Shown here: piece by piece, positions 1 to 18,921 of the stretch
Numbering within the stretch: the first letter of the stretch is position 1
How the letters are laid out: the number at the start of each line of letters is the position of its first letter
Source of the DNA: an uncultured Eubacteriales bacterium
GTDB lineage: Bacteria; Bacillota; Clostridia; Peptostreptococcales; Anaerovoracaceae
Length of the DNA: 21,620 nt
Assembly (NCBI GenBank): GCA_900542565.1
Contig: UQOC01000036.1
Location: forward strand, 1 to 21,620
Direction of reading: 5' to 3'
Made by a program: the position numbers and the translations under genes
Notes under the pieces: generated by a model
Databases searched by the model: none
The model's input: only the letters and a program-made list of their open reading frames with translations
Told to the model about the DNA's origin: nothing

Positions 1-51
1 ATAGACACTCCAATTGCAGAGCATCTGATCGTCGAGTTGTATTCCAAGTAA
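1..51 (+). CDS. rpsD: 30S ribosomal protein S4, C-terminal end (partial)
   Basis: Only the last 16 codons and the TAA stop are present. Frame 1 reads IDTPIAEHLIVELYSK then stop, which matches the conserved end of bacterial S4 (…LIVELYSK). S4 is a primary 16S rRNA binding protein of the small subunit. The gene order S4-RpoA-L17 is standard for the end of the alpha operon in Bacillota, which supports the call despite the short fragment. The 5' part lies outside the window. Confidence 0.85.
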   Translation: MDTPIAEHLIVELYSK

Positions 52-107
52 TAGCATTTAGCAGCGCAAGTTAATGGCAAAACTTGGAATGAAAGGGAGG
101 GTTTTGA

Positions 108-1052
108 GTGATAGAAATCGAAAAACCAACAATCAATAAATATATTGATGAAGACGGATGTTACGGTAAGTTCGTAGTGGAGCCTCTCGAAAGAGGCTAC
201 GGTACAACCCTCGGAAATGCTCTGAGAAGGATCCTTCTCAGCTCACTGCCGGGAGCTGCCGTTACATCGGTAAAGATCGACGGTATACTTCACGAGTTTT
301 CTACAATACCGGGAGTAAAAGAAGATGTCACAGAGATCATACTTAACTTGAAGAAGCTTGCTGTCAGATTAGAAGGTGAAAATACAAAGAGAGCCATAAT
401 CAATGCTGTAGGCCCTAAAGAAGTGACTGCTGCCGACATCATAGGCGATTCGGATATCGAGATATTCAATCAGGATCTTCATATCGCCACTCTTGAAGAA
501 AATGCTACTCTCGTAATGGAGATCAACTTTGCAAGAGGCAGGGGATATGTCCCGGCTGAGCAGAACAAGACCGAGAGCACACCGATTTCTGTAATACCTG
601 TAGACTCCATTTACACGCCGGTGAGAAAAGTCAACTTCACCGTTGAAAACACCCGTGTGGGACAGGTAACAGACTATGACAGGCTTGTTCTTGAGATCTG
701 GACTGACGGTTCCATCACTCCTGAGGAAGGCGTATCAATAGGTGCAAAGATAATGCAGGAACACCTGAACCTGTTTATCCAGCTTACAGATACCACCGAC
801 GCAATGGAGATCATGGTAGAAAAAGAAGAAGACCAGAAAGAAAAAGCTCTTGAGATGACCATCGAAGAACTTGAACTTTCTGTGCGCTCCTTCAACTGCC
901 TCAAGAGAGCCGCTATCAATACGGTAGAAGAGCTTACTCAAAAGACAGAAGAGGACATGATGAAAGTCAGGAACCTTGGAAAGAAATCTCTTGACGAAGT
1001 AAAAGCTAAATTGGAAGAATTAGGACTTGGCCTCAAGCCAAGCGATGAATAA
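108..1052 (+). CDS. rpoA: DNA-directed RNA polymerase subunit alpha
   Basis: 314-residue alpha subunit, the usual length. It nucleates assembly of RNA polymerase through its N-terminal domain and contacts UP elements and activators through its C-terminal domain. The assembly-domain signature [18 protein letters not shown] lies near residues 29-46. An acidic linker rich in E and K (around 237-247) leads to the C-terminal helix-hairpin-helix domain, with [14 protein letters not shown] and the final [13 protein letters not shown] motif. The start is GTG at 108, set 7 nt after GGGAGG (95-100). It begins MIEIEKP, as in family members. It follows rpsD by 56 nt and is presumably co-transcribed with the ribosomal operon. 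Confidence 0.98.
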
Positions 1053-1076
1053 TTCGCTGGAAAGGAGAATCTAAGA

Positions 1077-1418
1077 ATGCCAGGATACAGAAAACTGGGA
1101 AGACCTTCAGCTCATAGGAAGTCCATGCTCAGAAATCTTGTTACCGATCTGTTCAGAGAGGGCAGGATCCAGACCACCGACTGCAGAGCTAAGGAAGCCA
1201 GAAGAGAAGCAGAAAAACTGATCACTTTGGCAAAGCGCGGAGACCTTCACGCAAGAAGACAGGCTCTTGCTTTTATCTTCGATGAGAGCGTTGTGACCAA
1301 GCTCTTTGACGAGATTGCGCCAAAATATGAAGACAGAAACGGCGGATACACAAGGATCCTCAAGCTGGGACCTCGCCAGGGCGACAACGCCGAGGTAGTG
1401 TTCCTGGAGCTGGTATAG
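1077..1418 (+). CDS. rplQ: 50S ribosomal protein L17
   Basis: 113 residues, typical of L17. It begins [20 protein letters not shown], the invariant start of the family, and ends in the conserved EVVFLELV. L17 binds 23S rRNA near the exit tunnel. The start ATG is preceded by AAAGGAG (1061-1067). It lies 24 nt after rpoA and is the last gene of the alpha operon, followed directly by an intrinsic terminator. In many clostridia an ECF transporter operon follows rplQ. Here an unrelated catabolic operon follows, so this is a rearrangement point relative to that common order. Confidence 0.98.
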
Positions 1419-1435
1419 TTTCTGAAAAGATAATA

Positions 1436-1481
1436 AAAGGACATCATCGATCCCGTAAGGGAACGGCGGTGTCCTTTTTTT
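1436..1481 (+). terminator. Intrinsic terminator of the rpsD-rpoA-rplQ operon
   Basis: The arms AAAGGACATC (1436-1445) and GGTGTCCTTT (1468-1477) pair over 10 bp with one G-T. The loop holds a small inner hairpin TCCC-GTAA-GGGA (1451-1462). A T-run continues to 1481. It begins 17 nt after the rplQ stop. Confidence 0.9.
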
Positions 1482-1490
1482 CGTTGTGGA

Positions 1491-1555
1491 ATCCCAGAGA
1501 CAGGGGACTCTTTCTGCTGCAGCATCCCGGAGACAGAGGTGATCCTGCCTGCTGC
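1491..1555. repeat. Degenerate tandem repeat, two copies of about 30 bp
   Basis: Copy 1 is 1491-1520 and copy 2 is 1524-1555. Both run ATCCC[A/G]GAGACAG[G/A]GG … CTGCTGC with a few substitutions and a 2-nt indel. A perfect 10-bp palindrome TGCTGCAGCA (1515-1524) bridges the copies. The repeats sit between the ribosomal terminator and the promoter of the catabolic operon, outside any credible gene. Function unknown. Confidence 0.55.
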
Positions 1556-1603
1556 CCTATGGGTTCCTTTTGTTTTGCTCCGCCTCTCTTTTACAAAGAA
1601 TAT

Positions 1604-1611
1604 TGTATACA
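1604..1611. promoter_or_regulatory. TGTATACA palindrome, candidate operator (distal)
   Basis: A perfect 8-bp palindrome preceded by TAT. The same 8-mer recurs at 1727-1734 in the same intergenic region, 14 nt upstream of the -35 box. Two identical dyads upstream of a regulator gene suggest binding sites for the IclR protein or another dimeric repressor. This is inference only. Confidence 0.35.
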
Positions 1612-1726
1612 CACCGTCGCTGCAAGTTCCATACAATAAAACCAATATTTTCCTATGCAGAATGCAAAAAATACAGCCAGAAGCCACAAAAATAGTGTTA
1701 AAACCACACAAAATACACAAGTATTC

Positions 1727-1734
1727 TGTATACA
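1727..1734. promoter_or_regulatory. TGTATACA palindrome, candidate operator (proximal)
   Basis: Second exact copy of the TGTATACA dyad, ending 13 nt before the -35 hexamer of the IclR-operon promoter. That position suits either an activator or a repressor. The surrounding DNA (about 1655-1747) is A-rich and otherwise holds nothing recognisable. Confidence 0.4.
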
Positions 1735-1747
1735 TTACCAAAAAATA

Positions 1748-1776
1748 TTGACTCCAGGCATACAGACTCCTATAAT
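1748..1776 (+). promoter_or_regulatory. Sigma-A promoter of the IclR/catabolic operon
   Basis: TTGACT (1748-1753), a 17-nt spacer, then TATAAT (1771-1776): a near-consensus -35 and a perfect -10. Predicted transcription start is near 1783, giving a leader of about 25 nt that holds only the AAGGAG ribosome binding site. No terminator is visible from here to 9681, so the six genes can form one transcript. Confidence 0.8.
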
Positions 1777-1808
1777 ACAGGTAACAAAGGGAAAAGGAGT
1801 TTTATGTG

Positions 1809-2615
1809 ATGAAACGCCAGACCAGAGATATGAACGATTATAACATCCGTTCAGTGGAGAGAGCGCTCAGGGCTCTGCAATGTTTCAGCGGCAGCATGCG
1901 GGAGATCTCTCTGATGGAATTTTCCAGACGGCTGGAACTCAACAAGAGTACCGCTTTCCGTATACTTGCCACGCTAAGGAATGCGGGTTTTTTGGAAATG
2001 ACAGACGACGGAAGATACAGGCTTGGCGCTGAGATCGCAAGACTCGGCAGGCTGACCGACAGCGACGGTTTTCTCAAAAGGGAATCGCAGCCTACGCTGA
2101 AGAAATTGGCAAAACTGAGCGGAGAGACGCTGTCTATCTGTAAATATGATAACGGAAGGATGGCCTGCATATCCAAGATCGAAAGCCAGCATGTGCTCAA
2201 ATGCATCTGCGTCTTGGATTCAGATATCCCTATGTTAAAAGGAGCTACCGGGAAGGTTGTCGCAGCACATCTCCCGCAAGAGGAACTCAGACGCTGCATA
2301 CAGATCCAGAAAATGGCCGGGAATCCGGTCAGCGACCCCATACAGCTTGAGGCTGATTTTAAGAAGATCCGAAAGAACGGATATTATATCAGCCACAGCG
2401 AGTATGACGAACGGATCAATGCGCTGGGGGTACCCATTTTCGGAAAATACGGGGAAGTTGTCGGAAGCCTGAGCATAGTCGGCCCCGACAGCCGCTTTGT
2501 AGACGATGCCATTATTAAGATTTTACCTGATGTTTTACAGGAAGTAAAAGACTTGTCCAAAAGAATGGGTTACGAAGAACCGGCTCCGGAAAAAGATATA
2601 GCTGTAAATGCTTAA
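1809..2615 (+). CDS. IclR family transcriptional regulator
   Basis: About 268 residues with the two-domain IclR layout. An N-terminal winged helix-turn-helix (roughly residues 11-65: SVERALRALQCF … LNKSTAFRILATL … RYRLG) is followed by an effector-binding GAF-like domain (about 80-250), with GATGKVVAAHLP and the closing GVPIFGKYGEVVGSLSI segment typical of the family. IclR proteins bind small catabolic intermediates; E. coli AllR, which controls allantoin use, is one. Starts at GTG 1806 and ATG 1809 are both possible in this frame. I prefer ATG, 9 nt after AAGGAG (1794-1799). As first gene behind the promoter it is probably autoregulated and controls the genes that follow. The ligand is unknown. 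Confidence 0.93.
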   Translation: MKRQTRDMNDYNIRSVERALRALQCFSGSMREISLMEFSRRLELNKSTAFRILATLRNAGFLEMTDDGRYRLGAEIARLGRLTDSDGFLKRESQPTLKKLAKLSGETLSICKYDNGRMACISKIESQHVLKCICVLDSDIPMLKGATGKVVAAHLPQEELRRCIQIQKMAGNPVSDPIQLEADFKKIRKNGYYISHSEYDERINALGVPIFGKYGEVVGSLSIVGPDSRFVDDAIIKILPDVLQEVKDLSKRMGYEEPAPEKDIAVNA

Positions 2616-2654
2616 TCTTACTTGGATCGGCCCACGATCAGAAAGGAAAACATT

Positions 2655-4244
2655 ATGGAAAGCTATGGAATTTTAGCATTGCTGCCTGCAGCCATTGTTA
2701 TCACCCTGGCTCTGGTAACAAAAAAGACCCACCTTTCACTGGTTATCGGAATTTTTGTGGGAGTGGTCATATTGTGCGGAGGAAATCCGCTCACTGCCTT
2801 CCCTATCATGTTCAGAGACTATATAATACCGCCTCTGACCAGTGAGAGCAATATCAGAACGCTCATAATCATAGTTGTGATACAGGGCATGGCCAAGATG
2901 CTCAGGATCACAGGAGCCGGCCCGGCCATGGCAAATGCCATAAAGCGGATAGTCAAGACAAAGCGTGGCGCAGAAACAGTGACTACCGTAGCCGGATTTG
3001 CATTTATCTACACCGAACCTTGTTTCCTGCTGGGCGTTGTAATGAGACCTATAACAGAGGCATACAGGGTAACAAAGATCAAGCTGGCTTACATATGCGA
3101 CTCTCTGGGATGCAACATGGCCGCATTGTCACCTATATGCAGCTACGGACCATATTATGTGGGACTCATTGCCGTTGAGCTGGCTGCACTTGGACTTCCG
3201 GGAGACGGATGGAATGTATACGGGGAATACTGGACTCATAACTTCTATGCCATACTGGCCATCCTGCTGGTATATTTCGTATGTATCACAGGTAAGGATA
3301 TAGGGAAGCTTTATCTGGCTGAAAAGAGGGCAGATGTTACAGGAAGGCTCATAGGTCCTGGAGAAGTTCCTGTAGTTCCTGATAATCCGGAAGATATCCC
3401 TTCTGATGAGGAAAAGTTCCCGCTGAGAAACTTTGCCATCCCTATGATAACCATGCTGGTAGTCCTGCTGGGATGCGCTTTCTGGGAAGGAAATGTGATC
3501 GAGAACGGAGTAGTAGGAGCATTCAGAAACTGCACCATAACCCTTGATATAATATGCGGACTGACCGCAGCAGGACTTTCTTCCGTAGTGGTCGGCGCCT
3601 GCCAGAAGAGATTCTCAATCATCGAAGGATTCCAGAAATGGCTGGATGGCTGCTGTGTAGCCCTCAATGTAGTATTGATACTGGTGCTGGCATGGGCTCT
3701 TTCCAGCGTATCAGGGGCTCTGGACCTGAGCGGAGTCGTTGCAGGATTCGTTGACTCCATCGGAGTATCTCCGAGCATCATCCCTGCCTTCATCTTCCTT
3801 GCCGGAGCTGTCATGTCATTTGCAACAGGAAGCTCATGGGGAACTACAGCCCTGCTGATGCCAATAGCTGTGCCTATCTGCTATGATTACGGCCTTGGGA
3901 TCGGCATCGGTGCGGCTGCTGCCGTAGCAGGCGGACTGTTCGGCGATCACTGTTCACCGATATCCGATACGACCATCAAAGCCTCGATGGCATCCGGAAG
4001 CGACCACATGGCGCATGTAACCACACAGATACCTTATGCTGTTACTGCCGGTGTAGGCACCTTCATCGCATATCTGGTTGATGGACTGACCGGAAGCCTG
4101 ATCGTAGGTATTGTCGTAGGACTTGCGATCATGATCGGAGCGATAATGGTACAGAACAGGATGGCTGTGAACAAATACAAGGATTACGACTTTGACGCTG
4201 AGATAGCGCAAAGCGGCGATCAAGCTGAGACTGCGGGGGCATGA
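2655..4244 (+). CDS. NhaC-family Na+/H+ (substrate/ion) antiporter
   Basis: 529 residues, almost wholly hydrophobic with about a dozen membrane spans, so an inner-membrane transporter. NhaC-superfamily signatures are clear: GSSWGTTALLMPIAVP from residue 392 and GDHCSPISDTT from residue 430, followed by SGSDHMAHVTTQIPYA. I start it at ATG 2655 (MESYGILALLPA), behind AAAGG (2642-2646). The longer frame from TTG 2622 adds polar residues with no ribosome site. Members exchange Na+ for protons or organic substrates (MleN swaps malate and lactate). Placed between the regulator and three hydrolases, it more likely imports the pathway substrate or exports a product than acts in pH homeostasis. That role is inferred. 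Confidence 0.9.
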   Translation: MESYGILALLPAAIVITLALVTKKTHLSLVIGIFVGVVILCGGNPLTAFPIMFRDYIIPPLTSESNIRTLIIIVVIQGMAKMLRITGAGPAMANAIKRIVKTKRGAETVTTVAGFAFIYTEPCFLLGVVMRPITEAYRVTKIKLAYICDSLGCNMAALSPICSYGPYYVGLIAVELAALGLPGDGWNVYGEYWTHNFYAILAILLVYFVCITGKDIGKLYLAEKRADVTGRLIGPGEVPVVPDNPEDIPSDEEKFPLRNFAIPMITMLVVLLGCAFWEGNVIENGVVGAFRNCTITLDIICGLTAAGLSSVVVGACQKRFSIIEGFQKWLDGCCVALNVVLILVLAWALSSVSGALDLSGVVAGFVDSIGVSPSIIPAFIFLAGAVMSFATGSSWGTTALLMPIAVPICYDYGLGIGIGAAAAVAGGLFGDHCSPISDTTIKASMASGSDHMAHVTTQIPYAVTAGVGTFIAYLVDGLTGSLIVGIVVGLAIMIGAIMVQNRMAVNKYKDYDFDAEIAQSGDQAETAGA

Positions 4245-4268
4245 TGCCCCCCGTTTGCCCAGAGGGCA
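4235..4268 (+). other. Pair of small hairpins between antiporter and amidohydrolase genes
   Basis: GGGGGC (4235-4240) pairs with GCCCCC (4246-4251) around the TGA stop codon of the antiporter gene. TGCCC (4256-4260) then pairs with GGGCA (4264-4268), just before the TAAAGGAG ribosome site of the next gene. There is no T-run, so this is not an intrinsic terminator. It could mark an mRNA processing or stabilising site, or uncouple translation. Confidence 0.45.
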
Positions 4269-4283
4269 TAAAGGAGTCAGACC

Positions 4284-5708
4284 ATGAAAAAGATTGATAT
4301 GATCGTAGAAACTCACCACATGTTTACCATGAAGGGAGACGGTGTGGGTTATGAAGAAGGCAAGGTTGTGGCAGTCGACAAAGGCAAGATCGTTGCCATA
4401 GGAACAAAAGGAGAGATAGCAAAAGCGTATGAGGCTGATGAAGTTATCGACGGCAGCGGTCATATAGTTTTGCCGGGACTCATTGACGCCCATATGCATA
4501 CCACTTCATCCGCGCTCAGAGGAGTAGCCCAGGATGTGAGCAACTGGATGATGCATGGAGCAGGGCCTTTCCTGACCAATGCGACCAGGCAGACCCGTGC
4601 CGCCAGCGGAAGGCTGGGCATTGCAGAGGCCGTTATGAACGGGACTACCACCATAGGCGACGAAGGTCCTTTTGAAGGGCCGGTATGTGAGTTTGTCAAT
4701 GAGATCGGAGTCAGAGGAAATATAGGGTGCCGTATCAGGAGCGCCATAGACAGAGTATATGCTCCGGGAGAGCTTTACGATTATGACAAGGATTATACCG
4801 AAGAAACCCTTGGAGAAGCAAAGGAGATCTTCAAAAAATGGCATATGGCAGGCGATGGCAGGATAAGAGTGATGTTTGCGCCTCAGGGGCCTGATTTCGT
4901 CAGCGAGGAAACGCTGTATGAGGCACAGCAGCTTGCCAGTGAAAACAACACCTTCATGTATATGCATCTGTCTCAGGGAGACAGAGAAACGAAGCAGATG
5001 ATGATGCGCTACGGGATGCGCAGCATAGACTGGCTGGAAGAAAGAGGTCTCCTTGATGACCGTCTTATAGGGATACATCTTACAAATGCACAGGAATACG
5101 AAGTGAAAAAGGTCACAGACCACGGCGCCAGGATGGTCGTATGTACCACCGCCATAGGTGTGATCGATGGTATCGTACCGCCTGCCAAACAGTTCCAGGA
5201 TTTTGGCGGAAGAGTGGCCCTTGGCAGCGATCAGGCCAACGGGAACAACGAACACAGCATTTTCAATGAAATGCGTATGACTGCCATACTCAACAAGGTA
5301 AAATACGAGGATCCGGAAGTCATGCCATGCTGGAAAGTGCTGAGGATGGCCACCATAGAAGGCGCAAAAGCTCTGGGACTTGATGATGTGACAGGCTCCA
5401 TAGAAGTCGGCAAAGATGCCGATATGATACTTGTTAAGACTGATGTACCTGCAATGCAGCCGATATACACAAGACCGATGAGGAACATAGTGCCAAATCT
5501 GGTATATGCGGCCAACGGACGGGATGTGGATACAGTGATCTCAGGAGGAAAGGTCATCGTAAGGAACAGAAAACCTGTAACTTTCGACCTTGAAAAGATC
5601 TTTGCCGAAGCCCAGGCTGCAGCTGATGAACTTGTGCCGGCAGCCGAAGCGAAATTCTGGGAAGTAAACGGTGCAAATGCAAGATATATGAAAGAGGGAA
5701 AGCTTTAA
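4284..5708 (+). CDS. Metal-dependent amidohydrolase, SsnA/AtzA/cytosine-deaminase-like
   Basis: 474 residues, the usual length of the subtype-III amidohydrolase group (MTA/SAH deaminase, guanine deaminase, AtzA/TrzN, SsnA). Visible metal-site residues are H70-x-H72 (in LPGLIDAHMHT), H228 (MYMHLSQGDRE), H265 (GIHLTNA) and D316 (LGSDQANGNNE). Such enzymes remove an amino or other group from N-heterocycles in the cytosol. The catalytic Glu usually three residues after the third His is Gln231 here, which may mean altered chemistry. The C-terminus (MATIEGAKALGLDD … GSIEVGKDADMILV) returns to the beta-sandwich domain typical of the fold. ATG 4284 follows AAAGGAG (4271-4277). Substrate unknown; it shares an operon with ring-opening and carbamoyl-removing enzymes. 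Confidence 0.9.
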   Translation: MKKIDMIVETHHMFTMKGDGVGYEEGKVVAVDKGKIVAIGTKGEIAKAYEADEVIDGSGHIVLPGLIDAHMHTTSSALRGVAQDVSNWMMHGAGPFLTNATRQTRAASGRLGIAEAVMNGTTTIGDEGPFEGPVCEFVNEIGVRGNIGCRIRSAIDRVYAPGELYDYDKDYTEETLGEAKEIFKKWHMAGDGRIRVMFAPQGPDFVSEETLYEAQQLASENNTFMYMHLSQGDRETKQMMMRYGMRSIDWLEERGLLDDRLIGIHLTNAQEYEVKKVTDHGARMVVCTTAIGVIDGIVPPAKQFQDFGGRVALGSDQANGNNEHSIFNEMRMTAILNKVKYEDPEVMPCWKVLRMATIEGAKALGLDDVTGSIEVGKDADMILVKTDVPAMQPIYTRPMRNIVPNLVYAANGRDVDTVISGGKVIVRNRKPVTFDLEKIFAEAQAAADELVPAAEAKFWEVNGANARYMKEGKL

Positions 5709-5719
5709 GCTTTCCCTTT
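5693..5719 (+). other. Stop-codon-spanning hairpin after the amidohydrolase gene
   Basis: GGGAAAGCT (5696-5704) and AGCTTTCCC (5708-5716) form a perfect 9-bp stem with loop TTA. It extends to about 12 bp with flanking A-T and G-T pairs and contains the TAA stop (5706-5708). Only TTT then G follow, so it is a weak terminator at best. Attenuation or mRNA processing within the operon is possible. Confidence 0.5.
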
Positions 5720-5749
5720 GGCAGCAAAACGCAAAAAAGGAGAACAGTC

Positions 5750-7045
5750 ATGGCCGATAAGATAACTTTTACTGCGGCAGGAGATGTGTTCATGAACAGG
5801 CCTCTGCCGGAAACAGGGTACAAAGGCCTGGATGAAATTTCTGAACTGATAAGGGGATCAGAAGTCAGGTTTGCCAATCTGGAAACCACAGTCCACGACA
5901 GGGAGGGATACCCTTATCCTTTCAGCGGAGGAACATGGGCCATGGCATCACCGCAGATACTGGAGGATCTGAAAAAATTCGGATTCAATATTTACAATGC
6001 CGCAAATAACCATTCAATGGATTACAGCCACAACGGCCTTGAAGCAACCATCAGGCATCTGAAAGAACATGATATCAGGTTTGCAGGCATAGGAATGAAC
6101 CTGGCAGATGCGGCGGCTCCGGTATATCTGGAATGCAGGCAGGGGCGAGCGGCGCTGATAGCAGCTACAGCCACTTTCCATGAGGCATGGGCAGCCGGCA
6201 GCCAGAGGATGGATATGCAGGGAAGGCCGGGAGTAAATCCGCTGCGGCACATTGAAAAATTTTTTGTTACAAAAGACCAGATCAAGGCCCTCAGGGATAT
6301 AGCCCGCGGCACGCTCATAGACGCACAGCAGGAACTGGATATAAAAGAAGGATTTGCAGTTGAGACGCCGGGCTCATTTAAGTTTGCAGGCCGTGATTTT
6401 GAGGAATCGGATAAGACCTATAAGCAGACTGTCCCTGACAAAAGGGATATGGACAGGATAAGCGCCTCGATCAAAGAGGCGGGATCACAGGCCGATTGTG
6501 TTCTGGTCAGCATCCATTCCCACGAGCTTGGCGGGCTGCGCAAAGATTATCCGGCGGAATTCCTCAGGACTTTTGCCCGCAGCTGCATAGATGCAGGAGC
6601 CTCGGCAGTCATCGGCCACGGCCCCCATGTACTGAGAGGCATAGAGATGTATAAAGGCGGCGTGATCTTTTACAGCCTGGGGAATTTTATATTTGAAAAC
6701 GATACTACAACGCATCAGCCGGCTGATTTTTATGAGAAGTACGGAATGCCGCCGGACTCCCAGGTCGGTGCGGGCATGGATAAAAGGAGCAGAGGCGGCA
6801 AAGCAGGACTGGGAGTAAACAAAGATGTGTGGAATTCCGTGATCGCCAGATGGACATGGGAGAGCGGAAAGATCAAAAGGATATATCTGCATCCTATAAC
6901 CCTCGACCAGGAACTTTCCCGTTATCGCAGAGGACTGCCCCGGCTTACAGGCGATGAGGCAGTGCTGGCACAGATGCAGGAACTGTGCAGGGAAATGGAT
7001 ACCGGGCTGACAATACGAGACGGCATAGGATACATAGATATTTAG
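5750..7045 (+). CDS. CapA-family (PGA_cap) metallophosphoesterase-fold protein, cytosolic
   Basis: 431 residues matching the CapA/PgsA domain of the calcineurin-like metallophosphoesterase fold. Metal-site motifs are G11-D12, N43-L-E45, N86-N87-H88 with D91, H256-S-H258-E259, and G289-H290-G-P-H293 followed by the classic YSLGNFIFE. Classical CapA proteins are membrane-anchored and assist poly-gamma-glutamate export. This one has no signal peptide or membrane segment and starts straight into the fold, so it should be cytosolic. No capB/capC/capD-like gene lies nearby. It sits between two amidohydrolases in a catabolic operon, so a hydrolase or accessory role on the pathway substrate is more likely than capsule synthesis. 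ATG 5750 follows AAAAAAGGAG. The exact reaction is unknown. Confidence 0.85.
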   Translation: MADKITFTAAGDVFMNRPLPETGYKGLDEISELIRGSEVRFANLETTVHDREGYPYPFSGGTWAMASPQILEDLKKFGFNIYNAANNHSMDYSHNGLEATIRHLKEHDIRFAGIGMNLADAAAPVYLECRQGRAALIAATATFHEAWAAGSQRMDMQGRPGVNPLRHIEKFFVTKDQIKALRDIARGTLIDAQQELDIKEGFAVETPGSFKFAGRDFEESDKTYKQTVPDKRDMDRISASIKEAGSQADCVLVSIHSHELGGLRKDYPAEFLRTFARSCIDAGASAVIGHGPHVLRGIEMYKGGVIFYSLGNFIFENDTTTHQPADFYEKYGMPPDSQVGAGMDKRSRGGKAGLGVNKDVWNSVIARWTWESGKIKRIYLHPITLDQELSRYRRGLPRLTGDEAVLAQMQELCREMDTGLTIRDGIGYIDI

Positions 7046-7054
7046 GAGGACAGT

Positions 7055-8461
7055 ATGATCTGGGATAAGCTTATCAAGAACGCACACATGGTAACTGCCT
7101 CAGGCGACAGCCATGGAGATATATACATAAAAGACGGCAGGATAGCAGCCATTACCCAATGCGGCAAAGAAGGGCTGGGGGAAGCTGCGGAAGTCATAGA
7201 TGCAGCAGGCATGCTTGTTTTTCCAGGTTTTATAGATACCCACTGCCATTCAAGAGACGGCTCAAAAGGCGCATGGCAAAAGGAAGACTTTGCTCATTCT
7301 TCGATGGCGGCAGCAGCAGGGGGCATAACCACTATCCTTGAAATGCCCAACTGCAATCCGGCCATATATTCCGTTGAGAATCTGCAGGATCTGATCGAAA
7401 CCATAACACCTAAAGCTTATGTGGATTTTGGCGTCTGGGGACTTTGCCTCGGAGATCTGAACAAAGACCAGCTGAAGCCCCTTGCAGACGCAGGGGTAGT
7501 AGCCTTCAAATTTTTCTGGGGCTATGCCATAGATGCAAAGACATATCAGCTCATATACAACTATGAGGAAGGCATGAAAGATGTGATACCGCCTTTCAGC
7601 ACGGGAGAGGTCTACGAACTTTTCCGCAATGTGGCAAAGACCGGTAAAAAGATAGCCATCCACGCAGAGGACTTCGGCATCATCAAGACTCTGACTGCCG
7701 AGGCCAGAGAAAAGGGAATGAACGATTACGACGGCATGCTCTATTCAAGACCGGATTTCAGCGAGACAATAGTGATAGATACTGCCATCAGGATCGCAGA
7801 AGCCACAGGCGCCGACCTGCATATACTGCATCTTGCTGCAGGCGATGGAGTGGAGATAATAGAAAGAGCACGCAAAAAAGGAAGCTCTGTGACCGCAGAG
7901 ACATGTCCGCATTATCTGGGGCTGACCAGCGACGATTACGCCCACGCAGGCACATCCATGAAAGGCTATCCGCCTGTAAGGACAAAATACGACAAGGAAC
8001 TGCTCTGGAAGGGACTGGCGGACGGTGTCATATCTTTCGTGGCTTCAGACCATGCTCCCCACACACCTGAGGAAAAAGCTCAGGACATCTGGTCGGCTCC
8101 TGCAGGTATGGTCACCATAGAAACCATGGCTCCGGTCCTCATAGACGGAGTAAATCATGGCAGGATAAGCTGGAACCGGCTTGCCGAAGTCCTTTCTGAA
8201 GCTCCTGCAAAGATGTTTGGCCTTTATCCTTCAAAGGGCTCTCTGGAAGTGGGAACCGACGCCGATATAACCATAATCGACCCTGATATGGAATATGTCA
8301 TGGATCAGACCAAACTTCATTCCAGGACAAAACTGTCGCCATTTGACGGACGGCACATGAAAGGAAAACCGGTGTGCACCATAGTCAGGGGAAAGACGGT
8401 AATGAAAGACGGAGAAATAAAAGGAGACCCTTCAGGACGGTTTATCCGCCCGGAAAGGTAG
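7055..8461 (+). CDS. Cyclic amidohydrolase (allantoinase / dihydroorotase / hydantoinase type)
   Basis: 468 residues of the subtype-I binuclear amidohydrolases that open cyclic amides such as allantoin, hydantoins and dihydropyrimidines. Metal residues visible are H63-x-H65 (PGFIDTHCHSRD), the probably carboxylated K152 (VAFKFFWG), H203 (AIHAED), H259 (LHILHLAAG) and D332 (ASDHAPHT). AETCPHYLGL and KGYPPVR are the substrate-binding stretches shared by allantoinases and dihydroorotases. A pyrimidine-biosynthetic PyrC role is unlikely because the gene lies in a catabolic operon beside an M20 carbamoylase-type enzyme. ATG 7055 lies 5 nt after AGGAGG (7044-7049), 9 nt after the CapA-like gene, so the two are translated as a unit. 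Allantoinase and hydantoinase cannot be told apart by eye. Confidence 0.9.
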   Translation: MIWDKLIKNAHMVTASGDSHGDIYIKDGRIAAITQCGKEGLGEAAEVIDAAGMLVFPGFIDTHCHSRDGSKGAWQKEDFAHSSMAAAAGGITTILEMPNCNPAIYSVENLQDLIETITPKAYVDFGVWGLCLGDLNKDQLKPLADAGVVAFKFFWGYAIDAKTYQLIYNYEEGMKDVIPPFSTGEVYELFRNVAKTGKKIAIHAEDFGIIKTLTAEAREKGMNDYDGMLYSRPDFSETIVIDTAIRIAEATGADLHILHLAAGDGVEIIERARKKGSSVTAETCPHYLGLTSDDYAHAGTSMKGYPPVRTKYDKELLWKGLADGVISFVASDHAPHTPEEKAQDIWSAPAGMVTIETMAPVLIDGVNHGRISWNRLAEVLSEAPAKMFGLYPSKGSLEVGTDADITIIDPDMEYVMDQTKLHSRTKLSPFDGRHMKGKPVCTIVRGKTVMKDGEIKGDPSGRFIRPER

Positions 8462-8466
8462 GAAAA

Positions 8467-9681
8467 ATGGTAAACATAAATTTTGCAGACTCTCTTAGAA
8501 CATTGTTTGAGGATGTGGCCTGTATAGGTGCCCTGCCGGGCGGAGGAGTCACACGGCTGGGTTATACCGGGGATGAGGACAAGATGCATGGCTTTTTCAG
8601 GGAAGAGGCCCGCAAAAGAGGTTTTCATGTCTGGGAGGATGAGGCCGGAAACAGTTATGCATCCAACTGTTCCAAAGAGGCAGAGGGATATATCCTTATC
8701 GGTTCTCATCTTGATTCGGTGGTCGAAGGGGGAGAATATGACGGCGCCGTAGGCGTGTTTTCCGGGCTCCTGATCCTGGAAGCCCTGAGAGAAGCCGGTT
8801 ATACGCAGCCTGTCAGGGTCGCCGCTTTCCGCTGTGAAGAATCATCCAATTTTAAGATCTGCACCATAGGCAGCGGGCTGATAACCGGCAGCATAGAAAA
8901 GGAACGGCTGAAAGGTGCGGTAGCCATAGACGGCAGACCCCTTGAAGAACATATGGCAGAAAGAGGGTTCACCTTGAATGTCCCCAGGATAAAGGGGATC
9001 AGGCAGTATATAGAGATACATATCGAACAGGGACGAGTGTTGGAAGATGCCGGAAAAAATGTCGGAGTCGTAACAGCCATAGCGGCTCCCCACAGGTATC
9101 TGTTAACCCTTGAGGGATTGTCAGAACATTCCGGAGCAACTCCTATGAAACTGCGGAGAGATGCCCTCTGTGGAGCTGCAGAGATGATACTTGAGGTTGA
9201 GCGGATAGGACGGGAAGAAAGCTTCCGCCATTCAGTGGCTACAGTCGGCGCGATAGAGAATCATCCCAATGTTATGAATTCCGTGCCTGGCTTTGTAAAA
9301 ATGCAGATCGACATGAGGGGCATACACGATGAAAATATCTGCCGAATGGAAAAGATGCTGAAAGAAAAGCTGGCGGAGATATGTTCAAAGAGAGCCCTGA
9401 GATATGATCTGAAAAAAACCGACGAGAAAAAGCCTGTCATTCTGGATCGTCAGATGATAGATGACCTGGCAGAAGCCGCCGGAAGAGAAGGAATATCATG
9501 GATGAAGCTGCCAAGCGGAGCAGGACATGACGCCATGTCCTTTGCCTCCATATGTCCGACAGGAATGATCTTCATACCATGCCGGGATGGAATAAGCCAT
9601 AACATCAGAGAGCATACCGAGTATGGGCAGATCGCCACAGGGATCAGGACCGTACTCAGTTACATCCTTCACAGCTCCTGA
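8467..9681 (+). CDS. M20-family Zn-dependent amidase, hydantoinase/carbamoylase type
   Basis: 404 residues of the N-carbamoyl-L-amino-acid hydrolase / allantoate amidohydrolase family. Dinuclear metal ligands are readable: H81 (GSHLDS), D92 (EYDGAVG), E124-E125 (RCEES), H185 (IHIEQG) and H354 (GAGHDA). The dimerisation lid begins around GLSEHSGATPM. These cytosolic enzymes remove the carbamoyl group (as CO2 and ammonia) from a ring-opened ureide, the step that follows a cyclic amidohydrolase. I start at ATG 8467, 5 nt after the upstream stop. The frame is open upstream to 8374, but that part overlaps the previous gene and has basic, unfolded-looking sequence. Last gene of the operon; a carbamoyl-amino acid and allantoate are both plausible substrates. 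Confidence 0.9.
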   Translation: MVNINFADSLRTLFEDVACIGALPGGGVTRLGYTGDEDKMHGFFREEARKRGFHVWEDEAGNSYASNCSKEAEGYILIGSHLDSVVEGGEYDGAVGVFSGLLILEALREAGYTQPVRVAAFRCEESSNFKICTIGSGLITGSIEKERLKGAVAIDGRPLEEHMAERGFTLNVPRIKGIRQYIEIHIEQGRVLEDAGKNVGVVTAIAAPHRYLLTLEGLSEHSGATPMKLRRDALCGAAEMILEVERIGREESFRHSVATVGAIENHPNVMNSVPGFVKMQIDMRGIHDENICRMEKMLKEKLAEICSKRALRYDLKKTDEKKPVILDRQMIDDLAEAAGREGISWMKLPSGAGHDAMSFASICPTGMIFIPCRDGISHNIREHTEYGQIATGIRTVLSYILHSS

Positions 9682-9763
9682 TCTTACTTTTGACGAAAAA
9701 AAGGTACAGGTGACCAAAACTTAAAAAAATAAAGTTTATGTAAAGATAAAATCTCAAAATGCG

Positions 9764-9810
9764 AAATATCCTTAAACCCGTTGACTTTTGACATGTTTAA
9801 GGATATTTTT
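9764..9810 (+). terminator. 14-bp inverted repeat with T-run; terminator and/or operator
   Basis: AAATATCCTTAAAC (9764-9777) is perfectly complementary to GTTTAAGGATATTT (9795-9808), followed by TT. It lies 82 nt after the amidase stop and is the only candidate terminator for the upstream operon. The stem is AT-rich, and the repeat overlaps the promoter of the next gene, so an operator role is equally likely. The stretch 9682-9763 is AT-rich with no other recognisable signal. Confidence 0.6.
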
Positions 9811-9815
9811 ATATA
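9788..9815 (+). promoter_or_regulatory. Sigma-A promoter of the aminotransferase-lrp operon
   Basis: TTGACA (9788-9793), a 16-nt spacer, then TATATA (9810-9815), with predicted start near 9822. A perfect -35 lies in the loop of the inverted repeat and the repeat's right arm fills the spacer. A protein bound to the repeat would therefore occlude RNA polymerase, and the downstream Lrp-type regulator is the natural candidate. Confidence 0.65.
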
Positions 9816-9848
9816 GACGGCATGAACTGTCAAAAGGAGGATCAGACT

Positions 9849-11081
9849 ATGAATTTTACATATCAAAACAAGAGAAGCGGTATAGGAGCTCCTGATAAGC
9901 TCTTTGGCGTTTCGTCAAAAGCAAAGGAAAGGATCGCTCAGATAGGAAGAGAGAATGTCATAGATTCCACCATCGGCGTTCTTCTGGCAGACGATGGCAG
10001 GCTGGTGGTGCTGGATTCAGTAGATAAATGCGTAAAAGCCCTAAGACCGGACGACTACGCACCATATGCACCTATACTGGGAACATCTGACTACATTGAA
10101 GCAGTAAAAAAAGCCGTATTTCTGGACCAGATGCCTCAGAAGCCTGTCGCAGCGTGCTATACACCTGGCGGCACCGGAGCCATCAGAAACGCTGTTTCTG
10201 CTTATACACAGCCGGGAGACGCAGTGCTCACATCTGACTGGCACTGGAGCCCTTACAAGACCATTTCCGAAGAGATCGGAAGAACACTGACCACATACAC
10301 TCTCTTTGACAGTGAGAATAAATTTAACGCTGAAGCGTTTGAAAAGAAACTGGCAGAAGTCCTTGATCAGCAGGACCAGGCTTTCATCATAATCAACACT
10401 CCGGCCCACAACCCGACCGGATACACTTTCACGCTGGAGGATTGGGACAAGGTGCTGGCGGCATGTGAAAATGCTGCGCCTAAGAAAGTCGTGCTCCTTA
10501 CGGACATCGCATATATGGACTTTGCAGGAGACGCTGCAGAGAACAGAAAGTTCCTGAAAAAACTCGAAGCTGCACCGTCAAATTTGCTTCCGCTTATTGC
10601 TTTCTCCGGTTCAAAAGGATATACTATGTATGGAATGCGCTGCGGAGCGCTCATATGCATAGCTCCTGACGAAGAGACGGCAAAAGAATTTAACGATGTT
10701 ATGCGCATAGAATGCCGCGGATCATGGTCCAACGGCAACAGAGCCGCAATGAGTGTCATAGCCGGGATCGTCAGGGATGACAGCCTGTTTGAAAGCGTTA
10801 AGAACGAAAGAGACTATTATATGGAAATGCTGGCAAAGAGAGGCCGCGCCTTTATGGAGGCTGCCAGAGCCGAAGGCCTTGCGACATGTCCGTATGATGC
10901 CGGTTTCTTTATAACGATACCGTGTGAAAACGCAGAAGAAGCAGGGCTGGAGCTGCAAAAACATGATGTCTTTGCCATAGTCATAGGCAAAGGCATAAGG
11001 GTCTCCGTGGCATCTAATACGGAGGAAGAATGCAGGATCATGCCGGCCAAGATAAAGGCGGCCATTGAATCATGCAAATAA
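9849..11081 (+). CDS. Class I/II PLP-dependent aminotransferase
   Basis: 410 residues of fold-type-I aminotransferases, close in style to aspartate/aromatic aminotransferases. NPTG begins at N188, the cofactor-binding D219 and Y222 lie in LTDIAYMDF, and the Schiff-base lysine is K256 in FSGSKGYTMYGMRCGA. GIRVSVAS near the C-terminus carries the substrate-carboxylate arginine. It transfers an amino group between an amino acid and a 2-oxoacid in the cytosol; specificity is not readable. I start at ATG 9849 behind AAAGGAGG (9833-9840). The in-frame ATG at 9822 coincides with the predicted transcription start and has no ribosome site. The gene overlaps the Lrp-type regulator by 10 nt, which points to translational coupling and regulation by the amino acid handled. 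Confidence 0.92.
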   Translation: MNFTYQNKRSGIGAPDKLFGVSSKAKERIAQIGRENVIDSTIGVLLADDGRLVVLDSVDKCVKALRPDDYAPYAPILGTSDYIEAVKKAVFLDQMPQKPVAACYTPGGTGAIRNAVSAYTQPGDAVLTSDWHWSPYKTISEEIGRTLTTYTLFDSENKFNAEAFEKKLAEVLDQQDQAFIIINTPAHNPTGYTFTLEDWDKVLAACENAAPKKVVLLTDIAYMDFAGDAAENRKFLKKLEAAPSNLLPLIAFSGSKGYTMYGMRCGALICIAPDEETAKEFNDVMRIECRGSWSNGNRAAMSVIAGIVRDDSLFESVKNERDYYMEMLAKRGRAFMEAARAEGLATCPYDAGFFITIPCENAEEAGLELQKHDVFAIVIGKGIRVSVASNTEEECRIMPAKIKAAIESCK

Positions 11082-11518
11082 TTGAAAAGATGAAAAATTT
11101 AGATGAAATTGATCTGAAGATAATCAGACTTCTCAGAGAAAACGGACGCATGTCTCTCAAGGAACTTTCCAGCGAAGTTTTCCTTACACCTCCGGCAGTG
11201 GCCGCAAGGATAGAGAAACTCAGCAAAGAAGGCTACATCAAGGGGATCCACGCCAAGCTGAACATGGAAAAGCTGGGATACGGCATCAAAGCTTTTATCC
11301 AGGTCAGCGTGCCGCCTGAGAAAAGCGGAGAATTTTACGATTTCATCAAGAAACAGGAATGTGTCCTGGAAGGAGACCACATAACCGGAGAATATTCCAT
11401 GCTCCTAAAGGTGATATTCCCATCCACCACCATGCTAGATGAGTTTATGGGAAAACTCCAGCAATTCGGCAAGACTGAAACTTCCGTCGTGTTCTCCACA
11501 TTTTTAGAAAGACCATAG
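11072..11518 (+). CDS. Lrp/AsnC family transcriptional regulator
   Basis: 148 residues with an N-terminal helix-turn-helix (LDEIDLKIIRLLRENGRMSL … TPPAVAARIEKL) and a C-terminal RAM ligand-binding domain (about 70-145). These feast/famine regulators form octameric or disc assemblies and respond to amino acids. Two in-frame starts compete: ATG 11072, overlapping the aminotransferase stop, and ATG 11090, giving MKNLDEIDLK, closer to typical Lrp starts. Neither has a strong ribosome site, as expected for a translationally coupled gene. It probably regulates the aminotransferase and itself through the inverted repeat at 9764-9808. A strong terminator follows. Confidence 0.93.
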   Translation: MQIIEKMKNLDEIDLKIIRLLRENGRMSLKELSSEVFLTPPAVAARIEKLSKEGYIKGIHAKLNMEKLGYGIKAFIQVSVPPEKSGEFYDFIKKQECVLEGDHITGEYSMLLKVIFPSTTMLDEFMGKLQQFGKTETSVVFSTFLERP

Positions 11519-11539
11519 TGAGTATATAATTACATATCC

Positions 11540-11587
11540 AAAGAAACCTACCTGCCTGCCCGTCAGAGCAGGGAGGTTTCTTTTTTT
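11540..11587 (+). terminator. Intrinsic terminator after the Lrp-type gene
   Basis: AAAGAAACCT (11540-11549) pairs with AGGTTTCTTT (11574-11583), with further CCTGC/GCAGG pairing inside, followed by a T-run to 11587. It begins 22 nt after the regulator stop and closes the two-gene unit. Confidence 0.9.
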
Positions 11588-11611
11588 GCGGAACTGTACA
11601 AAGTTTTATGA

Positions 11612-11640
11612 GAGACAGGAAACTTGTTTTGTGATAAAAT
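11612..11640 (+). promoter_or_regulatory. Possible promoter of pcrA-ligA
   Basis: GAGACA (11612-11617), 17 nt, TAAAAT (11635-11640): four of six and five of six matches to the sigma-A consensus, 27 nt before the pcrA start and downstream of a strong terminator. A promoter is expected in this 80-nt gap, but this particular match is moderate. Confidence 0.45.
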
Positions 11641-11666
11641 ATTGAGAGCAGATAAAGGGGGAAAAT

Positions 11667-13895
11667 ATGAACTTAGACCATCTCAATAAACAACAAAAAG
11701 AAGCCGCCATGTGTACAGAGGGGCCGCTGCTGATACTTGCAGGCGCAGGCAGCGGCAAGACTGCGACCATGACCCACAGGATAGCATATCTGATAGAACA
11801 GGGCGTAGCGCCATCGGCGATACTGGCGGTCACATTTACCAACAAGGCTGCGGCAGAGATGAGACAGCGGGTACAGAAACTCATAAGAGGCAGAGCCTCG
11901 GATATGTGGATCATGACATTCCACTCCATGAGCCTGAGAATGCTCAGAGAACACTGGCAGGCCGCAGGCTATGAGAAAAACTTCGTCGTATACGATACAG
12001 TAGACCAGAAAGCTCTGGTCAAGACTGTTCTTAAAGAACTGAACATAGACAGCAAGGAATATCCGGTCAACTACCTTCTCAGCATCATAAGCAAGGAAAA
12101 GGAAGCCGATTTCGGGCCCGAAGAATATATCCAGCGGGAGGGAGAAAATTTTCGCTCAAAGGCCATATACAATGTATACAAGGCATATCAGAAGGGGCTC
12201 AAACAGAACAATGCCATGGATTTTGACGACCTGCTCAGAAATGCACTTCATCTGCTGAGGGATAATCCGGACATACTGGAGGATTACAGAGAACGGTTCC
12301 GCTACATAATGGTTGACGAATATCAGGACACCAACCACATCCAATACAGGATGATCAAGCTGCTGGCAGGGAAATATAAGAACATATGCGTGGTGGGAGA
12401 CGACGACCAGTGCATATATCAGTGGCGTGGAGCCGACATAAGGAACATACTCGACTTTGAGAAAGATTTTCCCAATGCCAGAGTCATCAAGCTGGAACAA
12501 AACTATCGCTCCTGCGGCAACATACTTACTGCGGCCCATTCAGTCATCAGGAACAACCGCGGGCGTAAAGCCAAAAAATTATGGACAGACCAGGATCCGG
12601 GCCACAAGATAGTATATGCACGGCTTGACAACGACAAAGAAGAAGCAAGATATGTGGCAAGAGAGATAGAACTGCTCAAGGGACCGGGAGTGAGCTACGA
12701 TGACTTTGCAGTCCTTTACCGTACCAATGCGCAGTCAAGACTTTTTGAGGATGCTCTGCGCAAAAGCAGGATACCATATCAGATACTTTCCGGATTCAGT
12801 TTTTATGAGAGAAAAGAAACAAAAGATATGATCTCATATATGCGGCTGATCGTCAATCCAAAAGATGACATGGCATTTGCGCGGGTCATCAACGAACCAA
12901 AGCGGGGAGTGGGAGCCAAGACCATAGAAAAGCTGCGGACCCTTGCTTCCGTAAGGGGAGAATCAATACTCGAAACAGTTTCAGATCCTGAAGTTGCAGA
13001 CGGGCTTTCTGCCAAGTCCAGGGAAGCAGTCAAGCAGATGACCCAGGTGATAGACCTATGCCGCAGGGAAAGGGAAAATCTGCGCATATCAGATATATAC
13101 GACAGCCTGCTCATAAAGACAGGATATATGAAGGCCCTTGAAGATGAAAACACCATTGAAGCCGAAGGGCGCATTGAGAATCTGCTGGATTTCAAATCGT
13201 TCATATACGATTTTGAAAAAGAAAAGCAGGATGCAGGCGAGCCTGCCACTTTGGAGGAATTTCTTGAAAAAGTGGCAACTGACGGAGATGCTGATAAATA
13301 TGACGCCGGATCAGGCAAAGTGACACTTATGACCTTGCACAGCGCCAAAGGACTGGAATTTCCGGTGGTGTTCATGCCGGGAATGGAGGATGGGCTCTTT
13401 CCGGGACACAGGGCAATGGACAGTGAAGATGGCCTCGAAGAGGAAAGAAGGCTTTGTTATGTTGGCATAACGAGAGCCAAAGAGAGGCTGTTTATGACAA
13501 GCGCATCCTACAGGATGATGTACGGACAGGGCGACTATACAAGGGAATCTGTGTTCATGCGGGAACTTGACCCGGCGGTGCTGGATCCTGCGGGGGATAT
13601 GGCGTATATGCCGGGACGCAGGACCAATAACAAGCTTGGCATAGACACCGGCTCTCTGGACGGCTTTGCTGCCCCGGCCGGAAAACCATATGATATGCTT
13701 GGGCGTGCAAAAAAGAACCTGGAGACTAAAGCCGCATCCCAGACCGTTGATCTTACCGCCGGGGACAGAGTATACCATGGAAAATTCGGCGATGGACTCG
13801 TACTGGAAACAGACGATAAGACCGTTACGGTAATGTTCCAGACAGCAGGACGAAAAAAGCTTGCAAAGGGAATAGCTCCCCTGAAGAAGCTCTGA
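11667..13895 (+). CDS. pcrA: UvrD/PcrA-type ATP-dependent DNA helicase
   Basis: 742-residue superfamily-1A 3'-5' helicase, the length of Bacillota PcrA. Motifs in order: Walker A GAGSGKT (26-32), DEYQDT (217-222), VVGDDDQCIYQWRGAD, LEQNYRS, TLHSAKGLEFPVVFMPGMEDGLFP, and EEERRLCYVGITRAKERLF. A C-terminal Tudor/SH3-like segment (GDRVYHGKFGDGLVLE) is the one PcrA uses to bind RNA polymerase. It acts in rolling-circle replication, removal of RecA filaments, and transcription-coupled repair. ATG 11667 follows AAAGGGGG (11654-11661). The neighbour ligA, 53 nt downstream with no terminator between, matches the conserved pcrA-ligA arrangement. Confidence 0.97.
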   Translation: MNLDHLNKQQKEAAMCTEGPLLILAGAGSGKTATMTHRIAYLIEQGVAPSAILAVTFTNKAAAEMRQRVQKLIRGRASDMWIMTFHSMSLRMLREHWQAAGYEKNFVVYDTVDQKALVKTVLKELNIDSKEYPVNYLLSIISKEKEADFGPEEYIQREGENFRSKAIYNVYKAYQKGLKQNNAMDFDDLLRNALHLLRDNPDILEDYRERFRYIMVDEYQDTNHIQYRMIKLLAGKYKNICVVGDDDQCIYQWRGADIRNILDFEKDFPNARVIKLEQNYRSCGNILTAAHSVIRNNRGRKAKKLWTDQDPGHKIVYARLDNDKEEARYVAREIELLKGPGVSYDDFAVLYRTNAQSRLFEDALRKSRIPYQILSGFSFYERKETKDMISYMRLIVNPKDDMAFARVINEPKRGVGAKTIEKLRTLASVRGESILETVSDPEVADGLSAKSREAVKQMTQVIDLCRRERENLRISDIYDSLLIKTGYMKALEDENTIEAEGRIENLLDFKSFIYDFEKEKQDAGEPATLEEFLEKVATDGDADKYDAGSGKVTLMTLHSAKGLEFPVVFMPGMEDGLFPGHRAMDSEDGLEEERRLCYVGITRAKERLFMTSASYRMMYGQGDYTRESVFMRELDPAVLDPAGDMAYMPGRRTNNKLGIDTGSLDGFAAPAGKPYDMLGRAKKNLETKAASQTVDLTAGDRVYHGKFGDGLVLETDDKTVTVMFQTAGRKKLAKGIAPLKKL

Positions 13896-16492: not shown

Positions 16493-16516
16493 GTGTCTCA
16501 ATGGAGGTGAGAAGCA

Positions 16517-17434: not shown

Positions 17435-17502
17435 AACCGAATACACTTAACCCGCCGGACAATCCATTTGCCCGGCCTTTTCATTTTCACAAGGAGGTAT
17501 CC

Positions 17503-18377: not shown

Positions 18378-18407
18378 TGGCAGGCTCACCCATAGGAGGA
18401 TTTAAGT

Positions 18408-18914: not shown

Positions 18915-18921
18915 CCAGTAA

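Follow-up and report, generated by a model that had tools for sequence, protein, structure and literature searches.

What does a protein of the CapA "capsule synthesis" type do between the enzymes of a ring-opening pathway? The question is raised by a stretch of 21,620 nucleotides (here called the window) from an uncultured Eubacteriales bacterium, contig UQOC01000036.1, in which six plus-strand genes follow one another with intergenic gaps of only 39, 39, 41, 9, and 5 bases. They encode an IclR regulator, an NhaC transporter, a COG0402 amidohydrolase, a CapA protein, a HyuA-like cyclic amidohydrolase, and an M20 amidase, as assigned from open reading frames and Pfam/NCBIfam matches. The original prediction had described a regulated hydrolase operon for an N-heterocycle or ureide, which is borne out in part, with the substrate class now narrowed to a cyclic ureide. 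The reading that we favor, in which an IclR regulator controls the breakdown of a carboxylated cyclic ureide and CapA serves as an epimerase, comes close to an even chance without quite reaching it; its basis is gene content, module conservation, a predicted fold, and residue conservation, from which we infer all reactions and substrates named below.

For gene assignment, the eight genes at positions 1806-11518 of the window were compared to Pfam, and NCBIfam models were applied with their own cut-offs. All six identities proposed earlier are backed by these matches. The earlier bounds also hold for the six genes, except that the most likely start of the IclR gene is 1809, that of the NhaC gene 2655, and that of the M20 gene 8467 rather than 8374. 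The genes of the block are as follows.

1809..2615, plus strand: IclR-family regulator (Pfam/NCBIfam), its ATG behind AGGAG
2655..4244, plus strand: NhaC-family (Na_H_antiporter) transporter (Pfam/NCBIfam)
4284..5708, plus strand: COG0402 amidohydrolase (Amidohydro_1) of a 474-residue subfamily, with H228-x-x-Q231 where HxxE is expected
5750..7045, plus strand: CapA/PGA_cap protein (Pfam), candidate MslH-type epimerase
7055..8461, plus strand: HyuA-like cyclic amidohydrolase with R67, N99, and DHAPH
8467..9681, plus strand: M20 hydantoinase/carbamoylase-family amidase (TIGR01879)

The CapA-like protein, left unplaced earlier, can now be given a plausible role. At least 4125 homologs lie over the threshold for the window query. 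Sequence, profile, and predicted structure all give MslH as the relative with known function: of the solved structures listed, MslH (PDB 8gq9) alone matches over the full length (template modeling score of 0.93 for the predicted fold, at 34% sequence identity), which is no proof that others do not exist, and the prediction follows the full-length MslH fold beyond the calcineurin core. According to PMC10406935, MslH is a Ca-dependent epimerase of the C-terminal Trp in a lasso peptide, and among mutants at E44, N87, H259, H261, H88/D91, and H295/D11, six variants were inactive while H259A and H261A were weakened. The window protein has all eight of these key residues, namely E45, N87, H256, and H258 at the metal and the dyads H88/D91 and H293/D12.

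Residue comparison covered 84 CapA proteins: the window protein, those of 76 loci, and those of 7 plasmid loci. The loci are drawn from the 80 that were listed, with a CapA alignment, from a profile scan of genome contigs, from which closer relatives may be missing; L019, L039, L047, and L066 are omitted from the 76-locus counts for want of a plus-strand CapA call (L039 is kept for its aspartase only), and neighbor counts omit open reading frames of <150 residues. Six of the eight key residues are present in 84/84 proteins, D12 in 83 (with a gap in L069), and D91 in 82, the other two having Glu. The residue after E45, the presumed second-metal position as set by sequence alone after the phosphatase-like YmdB, is never Asn in the 84. 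The side-chain pocket residue Leu348 of MslH, as given in PMC10406935, corresponds to R346 in the window protein. At this position, 71 of the 84 proteins have Arg, 8 have Met, 2 have Thr, and 1 each has Ser, Gln, and Lys. Judged by sequence, a pocket Arg346 would fit an acidic side chain. N-carbamoyl-aspartate fits an MslH-type substrate because it offers a free carboxylate and an acylated nitrogen, as the MslH substrate does, and it is plausible that the CapA-like protein is a calcineurin-fold, MslH-type epimerase of N-carbamoyl- or N-acyl-aspartate. The eight Met-346 proteins form one clade with its own neighbors (RpiR in 8/8, MFS in 7, AMP ligase in 6). One locus of this Met-pocket group, L031:1346-15541, carries a COG0402 relative near an arginine-deiminase/DDAH gene, followed by RpiR, CapA, a beta-lactamase-fold gene, MFS, and AMP ligase.

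In 11 of the 80 listed CapA loci, HyuA, CapA, and M20 relatives stand in one same-strand run; these are referred to here as triad loci. Their HyuA proteins share the active-site motifs of the window enzyme: HCHSR (R67; HxHxR), MPN (N99), and DHAPH. Besides the HxHxR Arg, the MPN and DHAPH motifs of dihydroorotase hold the substrate carboxylate. The Arg is a conserved substrate-binding residue of dihydroorotase, as stated in PMC12524618. By pattern, the best 120 HyuA homologs comprise 112 with Arg, Asn, and APH, 3 with Thr for Asn, 1 with GPH, and 4 with an incomplete pattern match, while in five aligned hydantoinase/allantoinase chains the Arg position is taken by Ile, Asn, Glu, Ser, and Ser. 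The dihydroorotase-like genes that follow HyuA in two triad loci show the same motifs, but with MAN for MPN. HyuA, formerly described as allantoinase/hydantoinase-like, is a cyclic amidohydrolase that narrowly passes the TIGR03178 allantoinase model (365.7 bits; cut-off, 357.85) and has the L-selective hydantoinase 1gkr as its top PDB match. It also passes TIGR00857 (dihydroorotase; 325.6 versus 279.05), and its active site resembles that of dihydroorotase, not those of the aligned allantoinases and hydantoinases. Since Arg, MPN, and DHAPH are of the dihydroorotase type, they point to a cyclic ureide whose ring bears a carboxylate, for example dihydroorotate, hydantoin-5-acetate, or a closely related compound.

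The neighborhoods of CapA relatives, by analogy, point to aspartate or N-acyl-aspartate as the product. Aspartate ammonia-lyase-type genes occur in 7 of the 80 listed CapA loci. In L006, L017, and L039, such a gene comes immediately after CapA; in L042 it adjoins CapA, in L034 it is two genes off, and L058 and L061 have it in the same locus. All seven reach the NF008909 cut-off, and four that of TIGR00839. A malic enzyme relative adjoins the aspartase in L061 and L058 and is the second gene of the run in L006. CitMHS, DcuC, and DctM family transporters (Pfam, one representative each) share a run with CapA in other loci. The back half of the pathway would lead from the cyclic ureide through N-carbamoyl-aspartate to aspartate.

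For the last step, the M20 enzyme passes the TIGR01879 hydantoinase/carbamoylase model (354.1 versus 204) and has N-carbamoyl-L-amino acid hydrolase 3n5f as its top PDB match, and we propose that it is an L-specific carbamoylase. M20 genes account for 33 of 136 immediate CapA neighbors versus 24 of 587 genes at a distance of ≥4, an enrichment that is inflated because M20 genes from the vicinity of CapA went into the profile. CapA genes on plasmids (29 records, seven regions examined) have related company. The Natrialba region holds M20, M28, and M55 peptidases; the Sinorhizobium and Mesorhizobium regions hold dipeptide transporters; the Rhizobium CapA is flanked by aspartate ammonia-lyase and an M20 aminoacylase; and the Haladaptatus region holds a D-aminoacylase with an alanine racemase. 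Relatives of PF01177 (Asp/Glu/hydantoin racemase), searched for with ten references, tblastn included, were found in none of the 80 listed CapA loci, and PF01177 had no Pfam match among the eight window genes. All 11 triad genomes carry PF01177 genes outside the CapA loci.

The front half of the operon, NhaC and the COG0402 enzyme, is less easily read. In COG0402 aminohydrolases, the Glu of HxxE is catalytic, and five aligned reference chains (a 5'-methylthioadenosine/S-adenosylhomocysteine deaminase, atrazine chlorohydrolase, and three amidohydrolase or uncharacterized chains) all have it. In the window subfamily, HxxQ (Q231) takes its place; the Gln is invariant in 23 aligned members, and HxxQ is present in 113 of the 120 best homologs, with the pattern not found in the other 7. 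Simple deamination is doubtful for this reason. Of the earlier logic of deamination, ring opening, and carbamoyl removal, the latter two steps remain for a cyclic ureide. Two proteins of a cyanobacterial cluster share HxxQ, the better match having 45% identity and the same length class; we take the cluster to be of the cylindrospermopsin type and the two proteins to be CyrG and CyrH. In PMC2885083, these are proposed to form a uracil ring and to incorporate a guanidino group in it. By analogy with them and with the L031 relative, which follows an arginine-deiminase/DDAH-family gene, the window enzyme may act on a cyclic ureide or guanidine. In L102:17-7083, genes for an aldehyde ferredoxin oxidoreductase and for a member of the FMN-reductase family adjoin an M20-COG0402-HyuA set. 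NhaC genes adjoin COG0402 in L105 and L123 and CapA in L061, and NhaC is the probable importer of the operon substrate.

In the resulting scheme, NhaC would import the substrate, and the COG0402 enzyme would turn it into a cyclic ureide, e.g., dihydroorotate or hydantoin-5-acetate. HyuA, given its dihydroorotase-type residues and its relatives' neighbors, would open the ring to N-carbamoyl-aspartate. CapA would then shift the alpha-proton of this product between two dyads, H88/D91 and H293/D12, which share one metal. Both enantiomers could in this way reach M20, and aspartate, CO2, and ammonia would result from its hydrolysis of the L-form. In such a scheme, CapA would stand where classical hydantoin operons have a hydantoin racemase.

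How far is this arrangement conserved? The exact six-gene order was absent from the 80 listed CapA loci and from the CapA and COG0402 matches of whole-genome draws, the CapA matches being inspected with 1.5 kb flanks. These draws gave CapA matches in 12/397 genomes (E value of 1e-100) and 3/391 (1e-110), some at the same places as L001, L002, and others, and COG0402 matches in 5/398 (1e-125) and 1/394 (1e-110). What recurs is the two halves, NhaC with COG0402 and HyuA with CapA and M20. Lack of conservation anywhere had been named as grounds for refutation, which fails for the modules because both recur. The window operon joins two modules that occur apart elsewhere. In a tree of the CapA proteins, those of HyuA loci fall in three places (5 parsimony changes when set against all other rows), and the starred branches still allow one origin. 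The triad genomes comprise 2 Lachnospiraceae and 9 members of Bacillaceae, Caryophanaceae, and Sporolactobacillaceae. PyrK- and PyrD-like genes are present in 10/11 triad loci (all but L001), several triad loci include a TRAP DctPQM transporter and a PucR regulator, and the PyrD-like proteins tested (3/3) reach the dihydroorotate dehydrogenase cut-off. The COG0402 gene lies directly behind NhaC in 2 of the 6 genomes found with the COG0402 query (G425, locus L105; G1150, locus L123). In L031, from one of two Brevibacillus panacihumi assemblies holding it, a distant COG0402 relative (44 to 45%) sits four genes from CapA. The best rpoA match in 199 genomes reached 71% identity. COG0402 relatives at threshold numbered 0/2, 0/24, 0/2, 0/4, and 0/4 in the small families and orders searched; viral contigs gave no CapA relative and four weak COG0402 pieces.

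In a protein database, near-identical clusters exist for CapA (99%) and HyuA (100%), and closer homologs reach 87% for CapA, 92% for COG0402, and 85% for HyuA. Equal longest-contig figures indirectly suggest co-location of CapA P0010 with HyuA P0247 (10161), of P0078 with P0356 (25323), and of CapA P0039 with COG0402 P0160 (16962).

Two kinds of triad locus are of interest in their own right. In L002:4620-12678, HyuA, CapA, and M20 are directly followed by a dihydroorotase-like gene, an unassigned 395-residue gene, and PyrK- and PyrD-like genes, possibly an orotate-degradation cluster with two ring-opening enzymes. L012:208-11266 and its kin (L022, L035, L049, L050, L055, L058, and L064), from Bacillaceae and Caryophanaceae, combine TRAP, PucR, M20, PyrK, PyrD, HyuA, and CapA in varying order, with a nitroreductase in most, and are a candidate orotate catabolic operon. 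A 248-residue gene beside CapA in Bacillaceae, considered as a hydantoin racemase, proved to be a nitroreductase.

Besides the inflated M20 enrichment, several observations weigh against CapA as the epimerase of such a pathway. The protein falls well below the cut-off of the MslH equivalog model NF038314 (276.2 versus 700), by which measure it is not a lasso-peptide Trp epimerase. Arg is missing at position 346 in 13 of the 84 proteins, and the Rhizobium CapA of L118 has Thr there yet lies beside an aspartase gene, contrary to the idea that Arg marks an acidic substrate. Most CapA loci are without HyuA, which shows that the family extends beyond this pathway, and L003 and L007 lack HyuA within the window's own CapA clade. 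On plasmids, the Roseomonas and Macrococcoides regions (2/7) have no peptidase, acylase, or racemase neighbor. With respect to the substrate, the KxNPP Asn of the L001 and L002 dihydroorotase-like genes is Tyr in the window HyuA (KGYPPVR), so dihydroorotate as such is not its substrate. PyrD and PyrK are both missing from the window operon, and a dihydroorotate route would therefore need another source; the PyrK-like protein of L012, the sole one tested, is below its models' cut-offs (178.5 versus 314). If an L-specific enzyme opened L-dihydroorotate, an epimerase would be superfluous. Finally, the residues conserved with MslH are mostly also ligands in phosphatases of the same fold, so that their conservation alone is no proof of epimerase chemistry.

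In the foremost rival reading, the pathway is still one for ureides, but CapA acts as a metal-dependent hydrolase, be it a phosphatase, a peptidase, or an amidase. We hold it to be rather unlikely, given that an epimerase is the only full-length match in the structures listed and that Asn is missing at the presumed second-metal position in 84/84. Moreover, CapA-family genes of poly-gamma-glutamate synthesis come with reported peptide epimerisation, a finding cited in PMC9266682. A capsule operon was rejected because its partner genes are lacking: in the eight genes at 1806-11518, Pfam shows no CapB/CapC-type synthesis gene. A capsule role for the CapA-like protein is therefore unlikely. Rather unlikely, too, is a scheme in which the COG0402 enzyme deiminates a cyclic guanidine or creatinine-like imine to a hydantoin, the substrate being a guanidino-derived lactam. 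The Brevibacillus relative in L031, which is preceded by an ABC transporter and a gene of the arginine-deiminase/DDAH family, speaks for it, as do the relatives in the cluster that we read as cylindrospermopsin type. The aligned chains, with HxxE rather than HxxQ, speak against it, and Pfam finds no guanidine enzyme among the eight window genes.

Two alternatives remain. If the operon were a modified form of the reductive uric acid pathway (SsnA-HyuA-YgeY type), acting on a purine-derived bicycle or its partly opened product, it would have COG0402, HyuA, and M20 classes in the same logical order, as laid out in PMC12507026, and in G423 the COG0402 relative sits between M20 and HyuA relatives. 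The window enzyme is nevertheless far from the SsnA model TIGR03314 (111.1 versus 455.5), HyuA carries dihydroorotase-type residues, and no gene of XdhD, YgfK/UacX, YgeW/UacY, or YgeX type appears by Pfam among the eight genes, in agreement with the absence of ygeW-ygeX-ygfK purine genes stated before. We regard this variant as improbable. More improbable still is an allantoin pathway of allantoinase, allantoate amidohydrolase, and AllR-like IclR control. It could draw on the TIGR03178 match, on the near miss of M20 to allantoate amidohydrolase (NF006771; 385.9 versus 399), and on an AllR match of 74 bits. Against it, other models stay below their cut-offs (AllC TIGR03176, 260.3 versus 597.75; AllB PRK08044, 282.5 versus 688; AllR, 74 versus 406), three aligned allantoinases have Asn or Ser where HyuA has the dihydroorotase-type Arg, and relatives' neighbors include PyrD/PyrK-like and aspartase genes. 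In its simple form, this pathway was rejected.

Classical Arthrobacter-type hydantoin operons consist of a hydantoinase, a carbamoylase, a hydantoin racemase, and a transporter. The window operon likewise unites a cyclic amidohydrolase, an M20 carbamoylase, and a transporter; it differs in having no PF01177 racemase, a CapA/MslH-type protein, a dihydroorotase-type Arg in HyuA, and an extra COG0402 enzyme. It is most likely a variant of hydantoin/dihydroorotate-type utilisation in which the CapA/MslH-type protein does the racemase's work. Compared to MslH itself, the predicted full-length fold, the eight key residues, and the lack of Asn at the presumed second-metal position are shared, whereas the identity of 34%, Arg346 for Leu348, and catabolic neighbors in place of peptide-antibiotic genes set the window protein apart. 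Its HyuA resembles type I dihydroorotase PyrC in HxHxR, MPN, DHAPH, and the TIGR00857 match but is only 31 to 32% identical to the L001/L002 dihydroorotase-like genes and has Tyr for the KxNPP Asn. CyrG/CyrH, so named from our own reading of the cluster, share length class, HxxQ, and up to 45% identity with the COG0402 enzyme; their setting is cyanobacterial and biosynthetic, and their reaction is only proposed in the literature. The reductive uric acid cluster (PMC12507026) has the same three enzyme classes in sequence, but the window enzyme does not match the SsnA model, the reductases and YgeX are absent, and CapA and NhaC are present.

The anaerobic route through orotate or hydantoin-acetate is known from old enzymology. 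The literature, largely outside subscription journals, was searched for CapA or metallophosphatases together with hydantoinase, carbamoylase, or racemase and for orotate breakdown; a CapA epimerase with a catabolic role, or a gene cluster for orotate breakdown, appeared in none of the titles and abstract openings listed. More broadly, we tentatively suggest, with doubt outweighing confidence, that one clade of proteins labeled "CapA capsule" consists of catabolic, calcineurin-fold epimerases of N-carbamoyl- and N-acyl-aspartate. These would replace hydantoin racemase in ureide operons and, in firmicutes, work alongside L-specific M20 deacylases; proteobacteria and haloarchaea would have more remote relatives. 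PyrDK-HyuA-CapA-M20(-aspartase) clusters would then give genes to the anaerobic route. If so, the "capsule synthesis" proteins among the homologs would include many amino-acid-derivative epimerases, an activity for which a single solved example was found in this fold. Such a result would provide a genetic handle on the anaerobic breakdown of orotate-like and hydantoin-like compounds, as well as a new racemase with which hydantoins could be turned into pure amino acids.

Is the block one transcription unit? Promoters and terminators were scanned over positions 1-12000 on both strands and compared with shuffles. The features outside the six genes are as follows.

1432..1481, plus strand: terminator-like inverted repeat and T-run behind rplQ (arms 1432-1454/1459-1481, 23 nt, 78% complementary)
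1596..1734, plus strand: two 16-nt direct repeats (1596-1611 and 1719-1734), each ending in the palindrome TGTATACA
1748..1776, plus strand: sigma-70-type promoter TTGACT-17-TATAAT, 11/12 consensus matches
9849..11081, plus strand: class I/II aminotransferase; top NCBIfam model, aromatic amino acid transaminase subfamily, at 148.1 bits, below its cut-off of 377
11072..11518, plus strand: Lrp/AsnC regulator (Pfam/NCBIfam), overlapping the aminotransferase gene

By its sequence, the repeat at 1432-1481 closes the rplQ unit and parts the operon from rpoA-rplQ. The site at 1748-1776 has the top score of 27 promoter-like sites (14.4 expected in shuffles), in keeping with the one promoter named in the original prediction. 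Weaker plus-strand promoter-like sites lie within the block, for which reason a single promoter is likely but not proven. One weak plus-strand terminator-like site is found inside the block at 3252-3273, in a scan whose terminator-like sites are at chance overall (14 versus 11.9 expected). TGTATACA has 3 copies in the window versus 0.11 expected, 2 of them in the 1596-1734 repeats, which are candidate IclR operator sites.

Downstream, an AT-rich inverted repeat at 9765-9814 surrounds a promoter-like site ahead of the aminotransferase-Lrp pair and could be an Lrp-type operator or a terminator. Because of this promoter-like dyad, the pair is treated as a separate unit; its aminotransferase may use aspartate made by the operon. 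Toward the far end of the window (16500-21620), G+C climbs to 0.56-0.58, up from about 0.45-0.51, and a gene taken by eye as DNA ligase is followed by one of ParB type. An integrated mobile element seems to have its border in this region.

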